IMG/VR virus record: IMGVR_UViG_3300032516_000100
Coordinates: 1 to 33,011 of that record
Origin: a virus
DNA length: 33,011 nt
Reading direction: 5' to 3' (one strand)
Under the pieces are notes generated by a model. That model saw only the letters and a program-made list of their open reading frames with translations. It did not search any database and was not told the origin of the DNA. Both the position numbers and the translations under genes were made by a program. Positions 944 to 29,010 of the stretch are shown one piece after another (the first letter of the stretch is position 1; every line of letters starts with the position of its first letter).

Positions 944-2353
944 ATGGATATCGTGTACGACATCGAGACATATAGCAACTGCTTCCTGCTGACCGCAGAG
1001 CAGGCTGACGGTCCCCTGCGCTGGTGCTTCGAGATCAGCGACCGTATCAACGAGTCGCAGGCGATCACTTATTGGTGTCAGCACATGGGGAACTTCGGCC
1101 ACCGCATGGTCGGCTTCAATAACATCGGCTTCGATTACCCCGTGCTCCACCACCTGCTGCGCTCGGGACGCTCCGACGCCGCGACGCTCTACGCCAAGGC
1201 GCAGTCCATCATCAACACGCAGGACGGCGAGCAGCGATGGGCGCACCAGGTCTACCCGTCCGATCGCGTGGTGCCGCAGCTGGACCTGTTCCGGGTGATG
1301 CACTTCGACAACCGGGCGCGGTCCACTTCACTCAAGGCGCTCGAGTTCAATATGCGAGCCGACACGATCAAAGACCTGCCGTTCCCGGTCGGCACGGTGC
1401 TGACGCCCGAGCAGATCGTCACGCTGCGCGAGTACAACCTGCACGATGTGCGAGCGACCAAGCAGTTCTACCACCAGATTCTCCCCATGATCCGGTTCCG
1501 CGAGGAACTGACGGCTCGCTATGGCCGCGACTTCCTGAACCACAATGACACCAAGATCGGCAAGGACTACTTCATCATGGAGCTTGAGCGGGCCGGGGTG
1601 TCCTGCTACAACGTCGGCCCCGAGGGCCGCACGCCGCGGCAGACCCCGCGTCCGCAGCTGGTGCTGAAGGACGCCATCCTGCCGTGGATCAAGTTCGAGC
1701 AGCCCGAGTTCCAGCGGGTGCTGGAGTGGCTCAAGGCGCAGACGATCACCGAAACCAAGGGGGTGTTCAAGGATCTCACCGCCACGATCAACGGGTTCAC
1801 GTTCGTCTTCGGCACTGGGGGTATCCATGGGTCGGTGGAGAACGAGTGCGTCGAGAGCGACGCTGACAACGTGATCGTGGACCTCGATGTGACCTCGTAC
1901 TACCCGACGCTGGCGATTGCGAACGGGTTCTACCCCGAGCACTTAGGCACCACCTTCGTCGACATCTACCGTGACCTATTCGCCCAGCGGGCTAAGTACC
2001 CCAAGGAAAGCCCCGAGGGGCAGATGTTGAAGCTCGCGCTCAACGGGGTCTTTGGCGACAGCAACAATCGGTTCAGTGTGTTCTACGATCCGCTGTATAT
2101 GGCCCGTGTAACTTTGAACGGCCAGTTGCTGCTGTGCCTGCTGGCTGAGCAGCTGCTGAAGATCGGAGGTCTGCGACTGCTGCAAGTCAACACCGACGGG
2201 ATAACGGTGCACATGCCGCGGGAGAACATGGGTGGGTTGCATCAGGTGCTCGATTGGTGGGGGAGAGCTACCCGGCTGCACATCGAAGAAAACCATTACT
2301 CCCGGATGTTCATCGGGGATGTCAATTCCTACATCGCGGAGTACGAAGAATGA
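944..2353 (+). CDS. Family-B-like DNA polymerase, N-terminal part (exonuclease + palm)
   Basis: This 469-residue protein carries the 3'-5' exonuclease motifs of family-B polymerases: Exo I DIE (D6, E8), Exo II GFNNIGFDYP (D64) and Exo III YNLHD (Y164, D168). The polymerase motifs follow: motif A DVTSYYP (D315), motif B KLALNGVFG (K363, N367, G371) and motif C VNTDGI (N416-T-D418-G). In motif C the first aspartate of the canonical DTD is asparagine. The protein stops at DVNSYIAEYEE, the strand just after the palm. The conserved C-terminal region is missing here but is encoded in a separate frame at 2847-3269. Together the two parts come to about 609 residues, a normal length for such phage polymerases. 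The stop overlaps the ATG of the endonuclease gene (ATGA). Confidence 0.88.
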   Translation: MDIVYDIETYSNCFLLTAEQADGPLRWCFEISDRINESQAITYWCQHMGNFGHRMVGFNNIGFDYPVLHHLLRSGRSDAATLYAKAQSIINTQDGEQRWAHQVYPSDRVVPQLDLFRVMHFDNRARSTSLKALEFNMRADTIKDLPFPVGTVLTPEQIVTLREYNLHDVRATKQFYHQILPMIRFREELTARYGRDFLNHNDTKIGKDYFIMELERAGVSCYNVGPEGRTPRQTPRPQLVLKDAILPWIKFEQPEFQRVLEWLKAQTITETKGVFKDLTATINGFTFVFGTGGIHGSVENECVESDADNVIVDLDVTSYYPTLAIANGFYPEHLGTTFVDIYRDLFAQRAKYPKESPEGQMLKLALNGVFGDSNNRFSVFYDPLYMARVTLNGQLLLCLLAEQLLKIGGLRLLQVNTDGITVHMPRENMGGLHQVLDWWGRATRLHIEENHYSRMFIGDVNSYIAEYEE

Positions 2354-2859
2354 CACCCCATGATGTATTCGAGTACGACCCGGTCACCGGCGACTTCTTC
2401 GTGGTGAAGGAGCGCAGAGGTGCCCCGCGCACACCAAGACTCATCCGTCGTCTAGTAACTTACGTTGATGGTAGAGGTTACCTCAAGGTCCGATTCGATG
2501 GGAAAATGTACGCAGTGCATCGATTGATATTCGTGTTGATGACCGGCTCCTTTCCGAAGGGCGAAGTTGACCACATAAGCGGCGACAAGTGCGACAACCG
2601 TTGGGTGAATCTTCGTGATGTCCCTGTGATCGCCAATCGGCACAACAAAGGGGTTCGTGTTGACAGCGTGTCTGGTGTGACGGGTGTGTGGTGGAGTAAG
2701 GGAAGGCAAAGATGGCAGGCGTACATTCGCCACGAGAACATCCAGCACCACCTCGGATACTTCAAGGAGATGTCGGACGCAGTTGTGGCAAGGCACGCAG
2801 CTGAGCGCGAATACGGGTTTCACCCCAACCACGGGAAGCGTCCATCATGGCGCGGGTGA
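2350..2859 (+). CDS. HNH homing endonuclease with AP2-type DNA-binding domain, inserted in the polymerase gene
   Basis: The ATG at 2350 overlaps the polymerase stop (ATGA); the same frame extends upstream, but only inside polymerase coding sequence. The 169-residue product has an HNH_3-type core: VHRLI (H57), VDHISGDKCDN (D74, H75, N83) and WVNLRDV (N87). An AP2-like DNA-binding segment follows (SGVTGVWWSKGRQRWQAYI, about 108-126, then HLGYF at 134-138). This domain pairing is typical of free-standing phage homing endonucleases. The coding sequence is visibly richer in A+T than the polymerase around it, which fits later arrival. Its last 13 bases overlap the start of the polymerase C-terminal piece. 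No group I intron core or intein splicing motifs fit in the available space. Confidence 0.88.
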   Translation: MTPHDVFEYDPVTGDFFVVKERRGAPRTPRLIRRLVTYVDGRGYLKVRFDGKMYAVHRLIFVLMTGSFPKGEVDHISGDKCDNRWVNLRDVPVIANRHNKGVRVDSVSGVTGVWWSKGRQRWQAYIRHENIQHHLGYFKEMSDAVVARHAAEREYGFHPNHGKRPSWRG

Positions 2860-3269
2860 AGCGCAAGGGCGCCTACGAATACGATGTCGAGTGGCACCAG
2901 GACGCCTCTGCCCTCGTGGTGGCGAAGGTGGCCGAGCAGGTGCTGCTCCACGGTGCCCCGATCCGCGCCACGCTGGAGCAGTGGCCCGATAAGATGGATT
3001 TCATGTTGCGGGCCAAGGTGCCACGAGGGTCGTACCTGCAGTGGGGTGAGGCCCAAGTGCAAAACACGACGAGGTTCTATATAGCCAAGGGCGGCAAGCC
3101 GCTTATGAAGTGGATGCCCCCGCTGGCCGGGAAGGCTGAGTGGCGGCAGATCGGCATCGCAAGCGGATGGAACGTGCAGGTGTGCAACGATGTGAAGGAC
3201 GCCGTGATGCCCATCGATTACGATTATTACGTGAACGAGGTTGAGAAACTGACACTGGGGCTGGTGTGA
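2847..3269 (+). CDS. Family-B-like DNA polymerase, C-terminal part (thumb)
   Basis: This 140-residue product is not a free-standing family I know. It reads as the tail of a phage family-B polymerase. It begins ARVKRKGAYEY, which normally follows the NYIA-type strand of the palm. It continues with EWHQDASALVVAKVAEQ, a PDKMDFMLRAKVPRGS segment, QNTTRFYIAKGG and WRQIGIASGWNVQVCND. The preceding polymerase ORF ends exactly where this sequence should continue (SYIAEYEE), so the two pieces form one ancestral gene interrupted by the HNH ORF. It starts at ATG 2847 inside the endonuclease gene and in another frame. Sequence integrity suggests it is still under selection, and the polymerase would have to assemble from two chains. 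Confidence 0.85.
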   Translation: MARVKRKGAYEYDVEWHQDASALVVAKVAEQVLLHGAPIRATLEQWPDKMDFMLRAKVPRGSYLQWGEAQVQNTTRFYIAKGGKPLMKWMPPLAGKAEWRQIGIASGWNVQVCNDVKDAVMPIDYDYYVNEVEKLTLGLV

Positions 3270-3460
3270 TTGCTGGTTGCTACACGCTCGATCTATATTG
3301 CGACTTGATAAACGAAAAGCACGAGTACCGTGAGTTTCCACATCAATATACAGCGGAGTTCGGATCTTCTTGTCGGGCTAAGGCAAGAAGGCAAGGGTGG
3401 CGATTGAATAAGCGCACTGGATACGCTGTATGTCCGAAGTGCAGTAAGAGGATCAAATGA
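3266..3460 (+). CDS. Small cysteine-containing (zinc-ribbon-like) protein, 64 aa
   Basis: It starts with GTG overlapping the stop of the polymerase C-terminal gene (GTGA) and ends in an ATGA overlap with the radical-SAM gene, so it is coupled on both sides. The protein has cysteines at GCY and LYC near the N-terminus, SSCRAKARRQGW in the middle and VCPKCSKRIK at the end. This arrangement could bind one zinc ion. The basic middle and the C-terminal CPKC knuckle suggest nucleic-acid binding. No specific function can be assigned. Confidence 0.65.
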   Translation: MIAGCYTLDLYCDLINEKHEYREFPHQYTAEFGSSCRAKARRQGWRLNKRTGYAVCPKCSKRIK

Positions 3461-4404
3461 ACGTGCGGCTCACCCAGATCGACGGGGCGTTGCCAAATCT
3501 GGCGCTGATGAAACTCGCGCATTGGCACCGTCAGCGCGGTGACTTTGTTCAAGTGACGCGCCACCTCCATCGGCAAGAAGACGAGCCCACCTACGACAAG
3601 GTGTACGGCAGCAGTATCTTCGACTTCTCACAGTCACGGCGCGAGAACTTCCTGAAGTCGTGGCCTGATGCTGTCATCGGGGGCACCGGCGTCATCGTAT
3701 CACCGACAGTCGAGAGCATCACAGGTGATGACCATCGCGGCGTGGATTACGCAGGATTCCCCGATTTCGATGCGTCCATAGGTTTCACGCAACGCGGTTG
3801 CCGATTGAAATGCAAATTCTGCGTCGTGCCGAAAAAGGAAGGCAAGAACCGCAGCGTCTCGACCATCGGGGAAATCTGGCGCGGCGCACCGCACCCGAAG
3901 AAACTGCATCTGCTCGACAATGATTTCTTCGGGCAGCAGGAATGGCGCGAACGAGTCGCTGAGATCCGTGACGGCGGCTTTCGCGTCTGTCTGTCGCAGG
4001 GTATCAACGTGCGGCTCATTGACGACGAGAGCGCGGCGGCGTTGGCGACTATTCAGTACCGCAATACGAAATTCAACGAACGCAAGTTATACACCGCATG
4101 GGACAACATCGGTGATGAAAAGGTGTTTTTTCGCGGGGTAGACACGCTACAACGTGCGGGTATCCCACCGAGTCATTTGATGGCGTATATGCTTATTGGG
4201 TTCGATCCGCTAGAGACGTGGGAGCGCATTTGGCATCGATTCAATCGAATGGTCGAGATGGGTATCGAGCCTTATCCGATGGTCTACGATAGGCGCAACA
4301 AGAAGTTGTGTCACTTTCAACGGTGGGTGAACACGGGACTGTATCGCATTGTGCCGTGGTTCATGTACGACCCTTGGGTCAAGTTCCAAAAGGAAGCAAC
4401 GTGA
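3457..4404 (+). CDS. Radical SAM protein
   Basis: This 315-residue protein has the radical-SAM cluster motif CRLKCKFC (C115-x3-C119-x2-C122), which ligates a [4Fe-4S] cluster that cleaves S-adenosylmethionine. It is preceded by a region containing AVIGGTGV and followed by LHLLDNDFFG and a barrel-like pattern (LSQGINVRLID, LYTAWDNIGDE, LMAYMLIGFDP). The N-terminal ~100 residues resemble the cobalamin-binding-like or nucleotide-binding lead domain of B12-type radical-SAM proteins, though no DxHxxG motif is evident. Phage radical-SAM proteins of this kind are mostly uncharacterised. Its place between polymerase and nuclease genes suggests a substrate in nucleic acid or nucleotides. It overlaps both neighbours by 4 bases (ATGA, GTGA). 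Confidence 0.82.
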   Translation: MNVRLTQIDGALPNLALMKLAHWHRQRGDFVQVTRHLHRQEDEPTYDKVYGSSIFDFSQSRRENFLKSWPDAVIGGTGVIVSPTVESITGDDHRGVDYAGFPDFDASIGFTQRGCRLKCKFCVVPKKEGKNRSVSTIGEIWRGAPHPKKLHLLDNDFFGQQEWRERVAEIRDGGFRVCLSQGINVRLIDDESAAALATIQYRNTKFNERKLYTAWDNIGDEKVFFRGVDTLQRAGIPPSHLMAYMLIGFDPLETWERIWHRFNRMVEMGIEPYPMVYDRRNKKLCHFQRWVNTGLYRIVPWFMYDPWVKFQKEAT

Positions 4405-26133: not shown

Positions 26134-26436
26134 TTATTCCTTGTTCATCGGCTTTGCGTAGACAATGCCGCCCGCACTGACTTGCAACGCGGAAACGCGC
26201 CACGGTGCGCCCGTGCCCTTCGGCACCGTGATCGGCACCGGCGTGTTTGCCGGGAGCGCGAGCGAGCCGGTCGTGGCGACCGCGCCCTCACCCACGGCGA
26301 TGTAGGCATCGGAGGAACTCCAGACCACGACGCCTTGGGGGCCTGCGGGCCACGCCGTGGTATTTCCGGCGGCTGCGGTGTACGCGGCCAGTTGGGTGGG
26401 GAACTGGGTGTCGCTCAGGGGAGTCAGGAGTTCCAT
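26134..26436 (-). CDS. Small structural protein, 100 aa
   Basis: The 100-residue product (MELLTPLSDTQFPTQLAAYTAAAG...) is beta-rich and non-enzymatic, with WPAGPQGVVVWSSSDAYIAVGEG and LPANTPVPITVPKG. It reads like a small spike or fibre adaptor. It lies between the DUF5856-like gene and the FN3 fibre with minimal spacing, so it probably belongs to the receptor-binding cassette. No family is recognised. Confidence 0.55.
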   Translation of the reverse strand: MELLTPLSDTQFPTQLAAYTAAAGNTTAWPAGPQGVVVWSSSDAYIAVGEGAVATTGSLALPANTPVPITVPKGTGAPWRVSALQVSAGGIVYAKPMNKE

Positions 26437-26443
26437 GCGAACC

Positions 26444-26806
26444 TCACGAGAGGAATTTGAGCTTGTAGAGCGTGGTCAAGTACAGCTCCACGATGTTGTC
26501 GATCAGTTGCTGGATCGAAGATTCCGACTTGTCGCAGACCTCGTACCGGGCCTCCTCCAGATCGGCCAGTTGCGCCTCGAGGAAGTCGACCACGTTGCCC
26601 TGCCGCTTGATGCCCTGGAGCGCGATCGGGCCGATCAGGCCATGCCGACCTTGGTACGCCTCGGCAAACGCGTCCGCGAGGCCGATGATGCTCTCGTAGA
26701 ACGACTCCAGCGCCTTGTGCCGAGCGTAGGAGCGCGTGTTCAGGTGCGCGGAGTGTGTCACGTCGCGGGCGAGGAAGAGCCGGCCAACGAACTCCGCGGC
26801 CTTCAT
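26444..26806 (-). CDS. DUF5856-like protein, 120 aa
   Basis: The sequence MKAAEFVGRLFLARDVTHSAHLN, then TRSYARHKALESFYESIIGL, ADAFAEAYQGRHGLIGPI and NIVELYLTTLYKLKFLS matches the pattern of DUF5856-type phage proteins as I remember them. These are small four-helix proteins with conserved His and Glu residues (H18 and H21, H30, E34 and E48 here) that look like ferritin/Dps-type metal sites. The function is not established. It overlaps the portal stop by four bases (ATGA), so it is coupled to the portal. It separates the packaging genes from the fibre cassette. Confidence 0.7.
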   Translation of the reverse strand: MKAAEFVGRLFLARDVTHSAHLNTRSYARHKALESFYESIIGLADAFAEAYQGRHGLIGPIALQGIKRQGNVVDFLEAQLADLEEARYEVCDKSESSIQQLIDNIVELYLTTLYKLKFLS

Positions 26807-29010
26807 TGCGGCATTCCTGGTTGCGGTTGCAGTGGTTGCTGACCCAAGCCTGGGTCACCACCCATGTCCATCTCGCCGGTTGGACCCTGCGGGGCTGCAC
26901 CCATCGGGGCGCTCTCGGGAAGCACTTCTCCACCACCCCTGTCTGGTATCTGCCCCACAAGGTCGCCGGTCGAAATGGCCGCGTGGATCGTACCCAGCAC
27001 GATCTCGCTGATCTGCTCCGGCGTCATCGCCGCCGCAGTCGCCGTAATCCGCTTGGTTTCGGCATCGAATGCCTTGATGCCGGCCTCGTACTTGTCGATG
27101 TTGACCTTCTGCTGCTCGATCGAGTGCTGCATCGCCTGCAACGCACCGTGAACCTGGTCGAGCTCCTGCGCCATCGCCTGCATTTGCTGCTGCGCCGCGG
27201 CCATTGCCGGGTCATCAACGTCGGCGAGCACTTTCGGGTCCATTCCCCGCTTCAGACGCTCGGCCATCTCCTCGGCGCCCGGCCAATCCATGTTTTTGAC
27301 GAACAAATCGCCGGCAACGGCCCACAGCTGCGGGTTGCCCTGCAGCACCTGGCTCATTGCTTCCTGCGTTTCCTGCCGTTTGGTGACGTAGGAGGGTCCG
27401 GTGATCACGCGAACGTCGTATTTGCCGACACCCGGGTTGTAGATCTTCATCGCCGCGCTGGTTTCGGTCGCCTCGACCTTGTTCACCGCGACGTTCTGCG
27501 CCGGATTGAGCTTCGCCGTGTCCGGTTCGCCGTCCTCGCCCATGATCCGCGCCACACGCTCAGTATCGTAGATTTTCGGGATCAAATCGACCACGATTCG
27601 CGTGATCTGACGCACAAAACGCCCGTAGTTGTCGACGTAGTGGTAGGTGCCGACCGCCGCCTGGTGCTCGCGGGCCAGAATCGCCTTGCCGGTGCGCTCG
27701 TTTGAGGTCTGCCCGAGACTGGCGTTATACTGCCCCGTGGTCGACTTGATGTCATCCGCAGCGCCGAGCTTTGCCTGCAGCAACCCCGAGGAGGCCATCG
27801 GCGGCTGCGCCCGCTGCGGCAACGGCAATACCCCACCCTGACCATCGGTCACCTCGGAATTGACCTCCAAGTACGGCCAGTTCTGGGTGTTCGCCGTCTT
27901 CCACTTGTCCTCGTAGCCCTCGAACTGGCCCGAGTAACCGATGAACGGGGCCTTGGGCGCAAGGGCGAGCATCTCGGCCTCCTGCGACACCCAGTAGTTG
28001 TACATCCGCTGCGCGTCTTTCGCGTTCCTGACGAGCCCGCTGATGTAGAGCCGGCCGTCGATCTCGAACTCATTGCCGACTAGGCGCACCACCGGGATGC
28101 ACTTGCCGGCCCAGTCGCGCTCCTCGAGCACATCGAAGCCGTTGGTCTTCATCCACTTGATCGTGCAGACCTGCAACTCGCGCTTCTTGAGCACCGGCAT
28201 CGCAAGGTCGGCCATCGCCTTCGCCTGCGGCGAGCCTTCGTAGGCGGTGATGTTGCCAGCGTACAGGTTCAGCGTCTTGCGCTCGTACTCGCGGTAGAAG
28301 TACTCAGCGATCCGTATCGTGTCCTGCCCAAGCCACGGCCCGAACGACTCGTCGCCGGTGCCCTGCGACATGATCGTCGACACCGGCGTCGCATCCGGCC
28401 AGTCACGCTCGTACTCGGTCTTGAGCACGTCCTCGGCGATGAAGCAGAACTCCGCATCCGAGCCGCAGGGGTCCTGGATCAGCGGGTCCATGTAGACCGA
28501 GAACGAGTTCCTGATGCGCCCGATCTTGATGTCCTGGTCGAACGAGGTGTCGTCGCAGTACTCGGTGAACACCCGGGCGTAGCCCTCACCGTAGGTCACT
28601 TGGTTGTCGCAGGCGGTGTCGTAGGCCACATCGGCGTTGCTGATGTACTCGACGTAGCGCACGATGCCGTCGAGCACCTGCGCGACCTCGACATCGGCAG
28701 CGTCATCGACCGGGATCACCTTGCCCGCAGGCCGGTTCTGCCGCTGCTCGTTGGTGACTTGGTGGATGTGCTCGGGCAACTTGTTGATGGTCAGGCAGGG
28801 CCGGGCGTTGATGGTCTGCCCTTGCACAGCGCCGCGAGTGGCCAGAACATCTTGTGGCCACTGATACTGGTTGTCCGGTGACGCGGCGGCGAACTTCAGA
28901 TCGTCCAACTCGTCGTCGCGACTGTCCGAGAGCGCGGCCATCGTCGTCTGCAGACGCTGGCGCATCAACTCCATGCGCTTGTCGCCGCCGGGGACTTTAA
29001 CGTCGCTCAT
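26803..29010 (-). CDS. Portal protein, P22 gp1-like
   Basis: The 735-residue protein is close to the 725 of P22 gp1 and has the family pattern: DDLKFAAASPDNQYQWP, RPCLTINKLPEHIHQVTNEQ, RQNRPAGKVIPVDD, ACDNQVTYGEGYARVFTEY and RIRNSFSVYMDP. The C-terminal part has a long barrel-type helix with Gln-rich coiled coil (MAAAQQQMQAMAQELDQVHGALQAMQ) and ends in a Pro/Gln/Gly-rich tail (GDPGLGQQPLQPQPGMPQ). The portal is the dodecameric ring through which DNA is packaged and ejected. It follows the large terminase gene by 12 bases. Confidence 0.88.
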   Translation of the reverse strand: MSDVKVPGGDKRMELMRQRLQTTMAALSDSRDDELDDLKFAAASPDNQYQWPQDVLATRGAVQGQTINARPCLTINKLPEHIHQVTNEQRQNRPAGKVIPVDDAADVEVAQVLDGIVRYVEYISNADVAYDTACDNQVTYGEGYARVFTEYCDDTSFDQDIKIGRIRNSFSVYMDPLIQDPCGSDAEFCFIAEDVLKTEYERDWPDATPVSTIMSQGTGDESFGPWLGQDTIRIAEYFYREYERKTLNLYAGNITAYEGSPQAKAMADLAMPVLKKRELQVCTIKWMKTNGFDVLEERDWAGKCIPVVRLVGNEFEIDGRLYISGLVRNAKDAQRMYNYWVSQEAEMLALAPKAPFIGYSGQFEGYEDKWKTANTQNWPYLEVNSEVTDGQGGVLPLPQRAQPPMASSGLLQAKLGAADDIKSTTGQYNASLGQTSNERTGKAILAREHQAAVGTYHYVDNYGRFVRQITRIVVDLIPKIYDTERVARIMGEDGEPDTAKLNPAQNVAVNKVEATETSAAMKIYNPGVGKYDVRVITGPSYVTKRQETQEAMSQVLQGNPQLWAVAGDLFVKNMDWPGAEEMAERLKRGMDPKVLADVDDPAMAAAQQQMQAMAQELDQVHGALQAMQHSIEQQKVNIDKYEAGIKAFDAETKRITATAAAMTPEQISEIVLGTIHAAISTGDLVGQIPDRGGGEVLPESAPMGAAPQGPTGEMDMGGDPGLGQQPLQPQPGMPQ

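Follow-up and report, generated by a model that had tools for sequence, protein, structure and literature searches.

In a 33,011-base virus record from IMG/VR, referred to below as the window, the gene for a family-B DNA polymerase (polB) is divided into two open reading frames (ORFs) by a third one specifying an HNH endonuclease, and the same turn of this polymerase was found to be broken in about 33 distinct alleles, the window included. Very probably, a preformed split allele of polB, functional as a polymerase of two chains, has been spread time and again by homing endonucleases without introns; cleavage of the uninterrupted allele, homing, and activity of the two chains are the parts of this explanation that we infer. 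It also appears rather likely that one beta-turn of a phage replicative polymerase is a hotspot of gene fission, at which a pre-adapted stop/restart cassette is carried by unrelated homing endonucleases, and that the two-chain state is transmissible by homing and persists after the endonuclease has been exchanged or lost.

Organization of the split polymerase gene

The first polymerase ORF of the window, the N-piece, contains motifs A (DVTSYYP), B (KLALNGVFGDSN), and C (NTDG) and ends after the strand equivalent to KKKY (NSYIAEYEE). The ATG of the second one, the C-piece, follows 494 bases past the stop codon of the N-piece, and the three ORFs are found in three different frames (Table 1). At the junction, the order is therefore DVNSYIAEYEE, insert, MARVKRKGAYEYD. 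Both pieces match consecutive positions of the phrog_1252 profile, in agreement with a search of the whole record, and from the positions covered, about three are missing at the break. Together, the pieces comprise 609 aa (469+140), which fits the single-ORF polymerases of close relatives with about 608 to 617 aa. The ATGA overlap between N-piece and endonuclease gene is also present in L003, L022, L140, JD001, FZ14, and BUCT_49532 and constitutes the start of many endonucleases at this site. Likewise, overlaps of 4 to 20 bases between endonuclease gene and C-piece occur in other occupied alleles with a C-piece starting with ATG. A preliminary description, made from the sequence alone, had reported a polymerase in two ORFs around one endonuclease ORF; coordinates, lengths, and frames were all reproduced, its observation is confirmed, and its interpretation is supported. 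Just downstream of the split gene, a radical SAM gene is located, followed by genes for a small nuclease and a SNF2-type helicase.

Table 1. Features of the split polymerase locus in the window
Feature	Position	Strand	Description
Polymerase N-piece	944-2353	+	469 aa; exonuclease, palm, and fingers; stop codon TGA at 2351-2353; phrog_1252 profile positions 54-508, E 1.9e-152; 53-67% identity to intact relatives; fold of intact relative
GGAG, ribosome-binding-like	2338-2341	+	8 bases 5' of endonuclease ATG, within N-piece codons; direct reading of the sequence
ATGA stop-start overlap, N-piece/endonuclease	2350-2353	+	Direct reading of the sequence
HNH endonuclease ORF	2350-2859	+	169 aa; fills the whole gap between the polymerase pieces and overlaps both
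GGGAAG, weak ribosome-binding-like	2833-2838	+	5' of C-piece ATG, within endonuclease ORF; duplex energy -4.3 kcal/mol
Endonuclease end/C-piece start overlap	2847-2859	+	13 bases; direct reading of the sequence
Polymerase C-piece (thumb)	2847-3269	+	140 aa; own ATG; begins MARVKRKGAYEYD; phrog_1252 profile positions 512-647, E 8.2e-24; 76% identity to C-terminus of intact polymerases
Radical SAM gene	3457-4404		phrog_9298, E 5.5e-47

Group I introns with HNH endonucleases are frequent in phage polymerase genes (PMC3428280, PMC2993671), and a self-splicing intron, or an intein, harboring the endonuclease would yield one full polymerase after splicing. Such an element is very unlikely here. The endonuclease ORF takes up the gap and leaves no room for a ribozyme core, and translation signals, both start codon and ribosome-binding site, are present at C-pieces. 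Rfam scans detected no intron, giving only a chance microRNA match in the window region at E-values up to 5 and only a tRNA in 11 further loci. A standard intein is not compatible with three different frames, with the absence of a Hint domain in Pfam scans, and with pieces devoid of extra splicing segments. The preliminary description had likewise seen neither intron nor intein. A single chain could also be produced by ribosomal frameshifting or bypassing across the endonuclease gene, and the two frame changes in the window do share their direction. However, frame relations vary among the alleles, untranslated gaps of up to 55 bases precede the endonuclease start in several of them, and no slippery heptamer was seen at the window junction. 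To our knowledge, a ribosomal hop of 490 bases is without precedent, and this mode of expression is considered extremely unlikely.

Position of the break in the polymerase fold

Among solved structures, the nearest matches by fold belong to archaeal family-B polymerases (9N, Pfu, and KOD; the best with E 3.8e-16). The family-B assignment is based on this match and on motifs A, B, and C, which are read in the N-piece and conserved in an alignment of 52 sequences (A1). With this alignment, L068, an intact relative of 611 aa, was modelled by AlphaFold2 (mean pLDDT 93.2); the junction corresponds to the loop 471-474 between strands 465-470 and 475-478, a hairpin turn. The break falls between YIAxYE and DG[S/K]VKRKG in a beta-hairpin turn connecting palm to thumb. 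A profile alignment to a KOD variant places it between KKKYAVIDEEG and KITTRG, past motif C and the KKKY strand, in accordance with the palm-thumb position proposed before. The junction is not just the stretch of the gene with the highest DNA conservation, as its 10-codon windows rank 58th to 198th of 591 in this respect, above average and not at the top; the choice of the site is therefore not accounted for by conserved DNA alone.

Intact relatives

Scans with the N- and C-piece revealed 134 IMG/VR loci, 129 of which span both sides of the junction. In this unbiased sample, one frame runs through the junction in 126 loci, and three (L003, L022, L093) are split. The junction of intact alleles reads RDVNNYIAxYEDG[S/K]VKRKGAYEY, and Met was found in the turn in none of 133 intact alleles. 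The isolate closest to the window, Phage DSL-LC05 (Gammaproteobacteria), contains a single ORF of 617 aa. One-ORF homologues of the size sought by the preliminary description are available, and since the same polymerase is one ORF in nearly all relatives, the 140-aa protein is the C-terminus of the polymerase and not an independent family, so that this ground for refuting the preliminary description does not hold. Intact sister phages of split isolates are KpV52, ZCEC13, SBP, BUCT_47333, and MSW-3. Many of the loci L047-L062 contain about 60-95 extra residues in frame near residue 278 of the window polymerase, a variable insertion between exonuclease and palm.

Recurrence of the break at the same turn

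Degenerate DNA patterns specifying a start codon just before [VIL]KRKGAYE were applied to 2.9 million viral contigs. All 21 stretches matching the pattern contain a split allele, in a search which, lying outside the unbiased IMG/VR sample, favours such alleles. Restarts directly as M-[VIL]KRKG were not found in the scan, and a scan for GTG restarts yielded one additional contig, L187, which is also split by an HNH-like ORF. Cultured phages with the split were detected by tblastn in 50,697 phage records. Ten infect Klebsiella, mostly belonging to Jedunavirus (JD001, FZ14, KpV79, BUCT_49532, KpTRp1, pKp383, KLPPOU148, JustaPhage, BUCT791, and RCIP0047); the other isolates are Edwardsiella phage PVN06, Acinetobacter phage phiAB441, and Vibrio phage LMAVpS1. 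A C-piece scan of 84,980 bacterial and archaeal genomes gave a single short, doubtful match, and no prophage or host information was obtained.

With about 32 further alleles interrupted at this position, the split in the window is neither due to chance nor a lone sequencing error. An assembly or sequencing artefact could be suspected because the window comes from a metagenomic assembly for which no coverage is given, and contig L155, a split allele without insert, differs from an intact allele by little beyond the frame change, which could be an error. Yet the same architecture is present in many independent contigs and in finished isolate genomes, and an insert-less Vibrio allele is identical in five deposited Vibrio phage genomes. 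For the phenomenon as a whole, an artefact is refuted, and we attach practically no probability to it.

Three sequences were left out of the split count, L057 because its frame break falls on an undetermined base (N), and Flavobacterium phage Fpv1 (L176) and the crAss-like cr53_1 (L177) because they are broken elsewhere, near motifs A and B. In window residues, the latter breaks lie at about 316-319 and 384-391, with an annotated endonuclease within each of them, and we read them as further split sites in the same polymerase family. In phiAB441 (L175:471-3313), the polymerase appears to be in three pieces, with a GIY-YIG ORF at the palm-thumb split and another break, either genuine or erroneous, close to window residue 278.

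Endonucleases at the site

The window insert matches HNH_3 (E 3e-13; 49.6 bits, cutoff 24.8) and phrog_99 (E 8.6e-55). Its earlier designation as HNH/AP2 is clear for the first part; AP2 is weak (14.6 bits, cutoff 33.3), and passes the cutoff in one other insert at the same polB site. Four kinds of endonucleases are present at this site: HNH_3 with or without AP2, GIY-YIG combined with NUMOD3, another GIY-YIG group, and a zinc-finger DUF4379/T5orf172 type. The best phage matches of the window HNH are inserts of split Klebsiella polymerases. The preliminary description had seen the endonuclease as the agent of the split, which is supported for the window; elsewhere, two split alleles, L155 and the Vibrio allele, have no insert. 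L155 is kept as uncertain, and the argument concerning insert-less alleles is carried by the Vibrio allele. A decayed insert was considered for JD001, where only the last 64 residues are annotated, and rejected, as an intact zinc-finger/T5orf172 ORF of 276 aa is present.

Independent events and probable traces of homing

In a tree of 97 polymerases, for which N- and C-piece of each split allele were concatenated (a quick calculation in IQ-TREE with SH-aLRT as the sole support measure), 14 changes between intact and split are required, at least 12 of them forced by supported branches, and 19 over all insert states. The N-pieces of JD001, BUCT_49532, and RCIP0047 are 96-97% identical and their inserts are of the T5orf172 type and of two HNH lines with 33% identity to each other. 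Because such similar N-pieces carry unlike inserts, the inserts were swapped at an already split site. The HNH endonucleases of the polB site cluster in an HNH tree (4 changes versus 10.7 in shuffles), whereas the host polymerases do not. One HNH clade (100/98) comprises the inserts of L143, PVN06, and Klebsiella-type phages, the polymerases of which belong to different lineages, and the window HNH adjoins this clade with weak support (82/71).

Closely related pairs of alleles revealed conversion tracts around the insert. L093, with a GIY-YIG insert, and the intact L083 are near-identical outside the junction region. In windows of 50 bases, identity is about 98% until 50 bases before the junction, 55% before it, 74, 58, and 82% after it, and then 98%. 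PVN06 and MSW-3 show 92-96% identity, then 42-76% in the roughly 600 bases leading to the insert, and 88-94% right after. For pairs with swapped inserts, identity is 88-100% immediately ahead of the insert and drops to 62-86% in places within the 200 bases that follow it. In the intact pairs L083/L092, L033/L172, and L163/L171, no comparable drop was detected at the junction. Such drops would be expected if a cut had been repaired with an occupied copy as template and the flanks had been co-converted, a process established for SegF and SegG of T4 (cited in PMC2993671). In relatives, horizontal transfer into this one site together with co-conversion of its flanks is shown by the polymerase tree, the HNH clades, and the conversion tracts; a tract of the window itself is not visible because its best empty relative is only 68% identical.

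Evidence for function of both pieces

In close relatives, and not in the window itself, dN/dS was between 0.03 and 0.23 in nearly all comparisons, whether of N-pieces or C-pieces and whether of split or intact pairs; the exception, 0.35, came from one N-piece pair with very low dS. Judged by these ratios, purifying selection acts on N-piece and C-piece of split lineages. Pairing with the anti-Shine-Dalgarno sequence is stronger at C-piece starts than at internal ATGs (mean -6.5 versus -2.3 kcal/mol, p=2.6e-14), the window with -4.3 kcal/mol being among the weaker split alleles. In eight complete split isolates, exactly the two halves constitute the only recognisable polymerase, with no polymerase of family A or C, which is strong support for a functional enzyme and not proof, as a host polymerase could substitute. 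A family A polymerase was not found in the window either.

The alternative, that the polymerase was inactivated by the insertion, that its pieces are decaying, and that the phage relies on another polymerase, is unlikely. One phage, JA-1, does combine an orphan C-piece with a family A polymerase, but intact pieces under purifying selection, ribosome-binding sites at C-piece starts, and the lack of another polymerase in the genomes mentioned argue against loss. In JA-1 (Vibrio phage, NC_021540; N4-like, Schitoviridae), the orphan C-piece (L178:2486-3109) is without an N-piece anywhere in the genome. It has 76% DNA identity to the C-piece of Vibrio phage LMAVpS1, a tail gene adjoins both, and it likely hitchhiked with this tail gene. 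The family A polymerase of JA-1 (26198-28154) was found in two places about 1 kb apart and may also be interrupted.

Proposed mechanism

A two-chain polymerase spread by homing would arise as follows. A free-standing, intronless HNH homing endonuclease gene would occupy its target in phage polB, creating two genes. The break lies in the hairpin turn between the KKKY-type and the KxKG-type strand, where a cut would do little harm. The three ORFs would be translated in series via stop-start overlaps and internal ribosome-binding sites, and the two chains would be held together by the palm-thumb beta-hairpin and by contacts at the domain interface, forming one working polymerase. Upon co-infection, an uninterrupted polB would be cut and repaired from the occupied copy. 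Because the endonuclease gene would move together with flanking polymerase sequence, the split allele, consisting of stop codon, endonuclease gene, ribosome-binding site, and restart codon, would spread as a single unit. Unrelated HNH, GIY-YIG, and T5orf172 endonucleases have entered the same site repeatedly, and the split can outlive the endonuclease.

Comparison with known split genes

Genes in pieces generated by free-standing homing endonucleases are known from nrdA of Aeromonas phage Aeh1 (mobE) and from the topoisomerase gene 60 of T4 (mobA) (PMC2988022). As in the window, an endonuclease ORF divides an essential phage gene, and the Aeh1 chains are fully active (PMC2988022); gene and site are different, however, and they represent single or few cases, in contrast to at least 12 changes, four kinds of endonucleases, and insert-less alleles here. 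Gene 43 of the Aeromonas phages 44RR and 25 (Petrov 2010, as cited in PMC2988022) also specifies a family-B phage polymerase in two cistrons, with chains reported to co-purify and to be active, but it is a T4-type enzyme of about 900 aa split in the fingers and not at the palm-thumb hairpin. When mapped onto RB69, the border between the two 44RR halves falls within the fingers, at residues 511-519, whereas the polB break lies after motif C. An untranslated spacer without an endonuclease gene separates the 44RR halves, and phage 25 has in addition a seg-type endonuclease and a group I intron (PMC2988022). With a split in the fingers and a spacer instead of an endonuclease gene, 44RR represents neither the same site nor the same arrangement.

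The split PolB of Methanothermobacter thermautotrophicus (Kelman 1999, as cited in PMC7776575) is likewise a family-B polymerase made from two polypeptides, but it is an archaeal cellular enzyme for which no endonuclease is known. In the Pseudomonas jumbo phage MIJ3 (PMC6892783), PolB is in two ORFs with an HNH endonuclease ORF between them; there, a split intein with splicing motifs is present, in contrast to the window pieces. The OM43 phages MEP401/402 (PMC10580990) contain a polymerase in two ORFs around a small ORF, but it is a family A enzyme, the inserted ORF is without known homology, and they were rejected as the same case. HEG islands (PMC10448857) resemble the polB site in HNH and T5orf172 genes near phage polymerase genes, in turnover of endonucleases at one place, and in recombination boundaries, but concern gene neighbours and predicted spliced genes, not a polymerase repeatedly divided at a single turn. 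The only split gene cited in this 2023 survey encodes a ribonucleotide reductase.

A description of the polB hotspot was not found in the open-access literature searched. While the genes-in-pieces kind is already known from Aeh1 nrdA and 44RR/25 gene 43, site, polymerase family, and recurrence appear to be new. The preliminary description had proposed a new case; rather than standing alone, the window belongs to a hotspot entered recurrently by several endonuclease families unrelated to each other, and genomes of cultured phages with this split were deposited in GenBank years ago, apparently without a paper describing it. With the same replication enzyme broken at one loop about a dozen times or more, the site represents a replicated natural experiment and not an isolated curiosity. 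Empty, occupied, re-occupied, and insert-less alleles in cultured phages make fixation of gene fission, spread of a split protein by homing, and permissiveness of the site testable, and for the engineering of small family-B polymerases, the turn provides a naturally occurring place to divide the chain.

Consequences for annotation

In many Klebsiella phages, the annotation can be corrected, as it treats the halves as individual polymerases or as hypothetical proteins and often gives the endonuclease no name or a wrong one. The family phrog_15833 (192 positions, 'DNA polymerase' in PHROGs) aligns with the C-piece of the window from its very first position and therefore probably represents C-pieces of split phages catalogued as a separate family. 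The insert of Klebsiella phage JD001 (L158:1778-2608) encodes a T5orf172 endonuclease, and the corresponding insert type in JustaPhage is labelled 'type 2 secretion system protein'.
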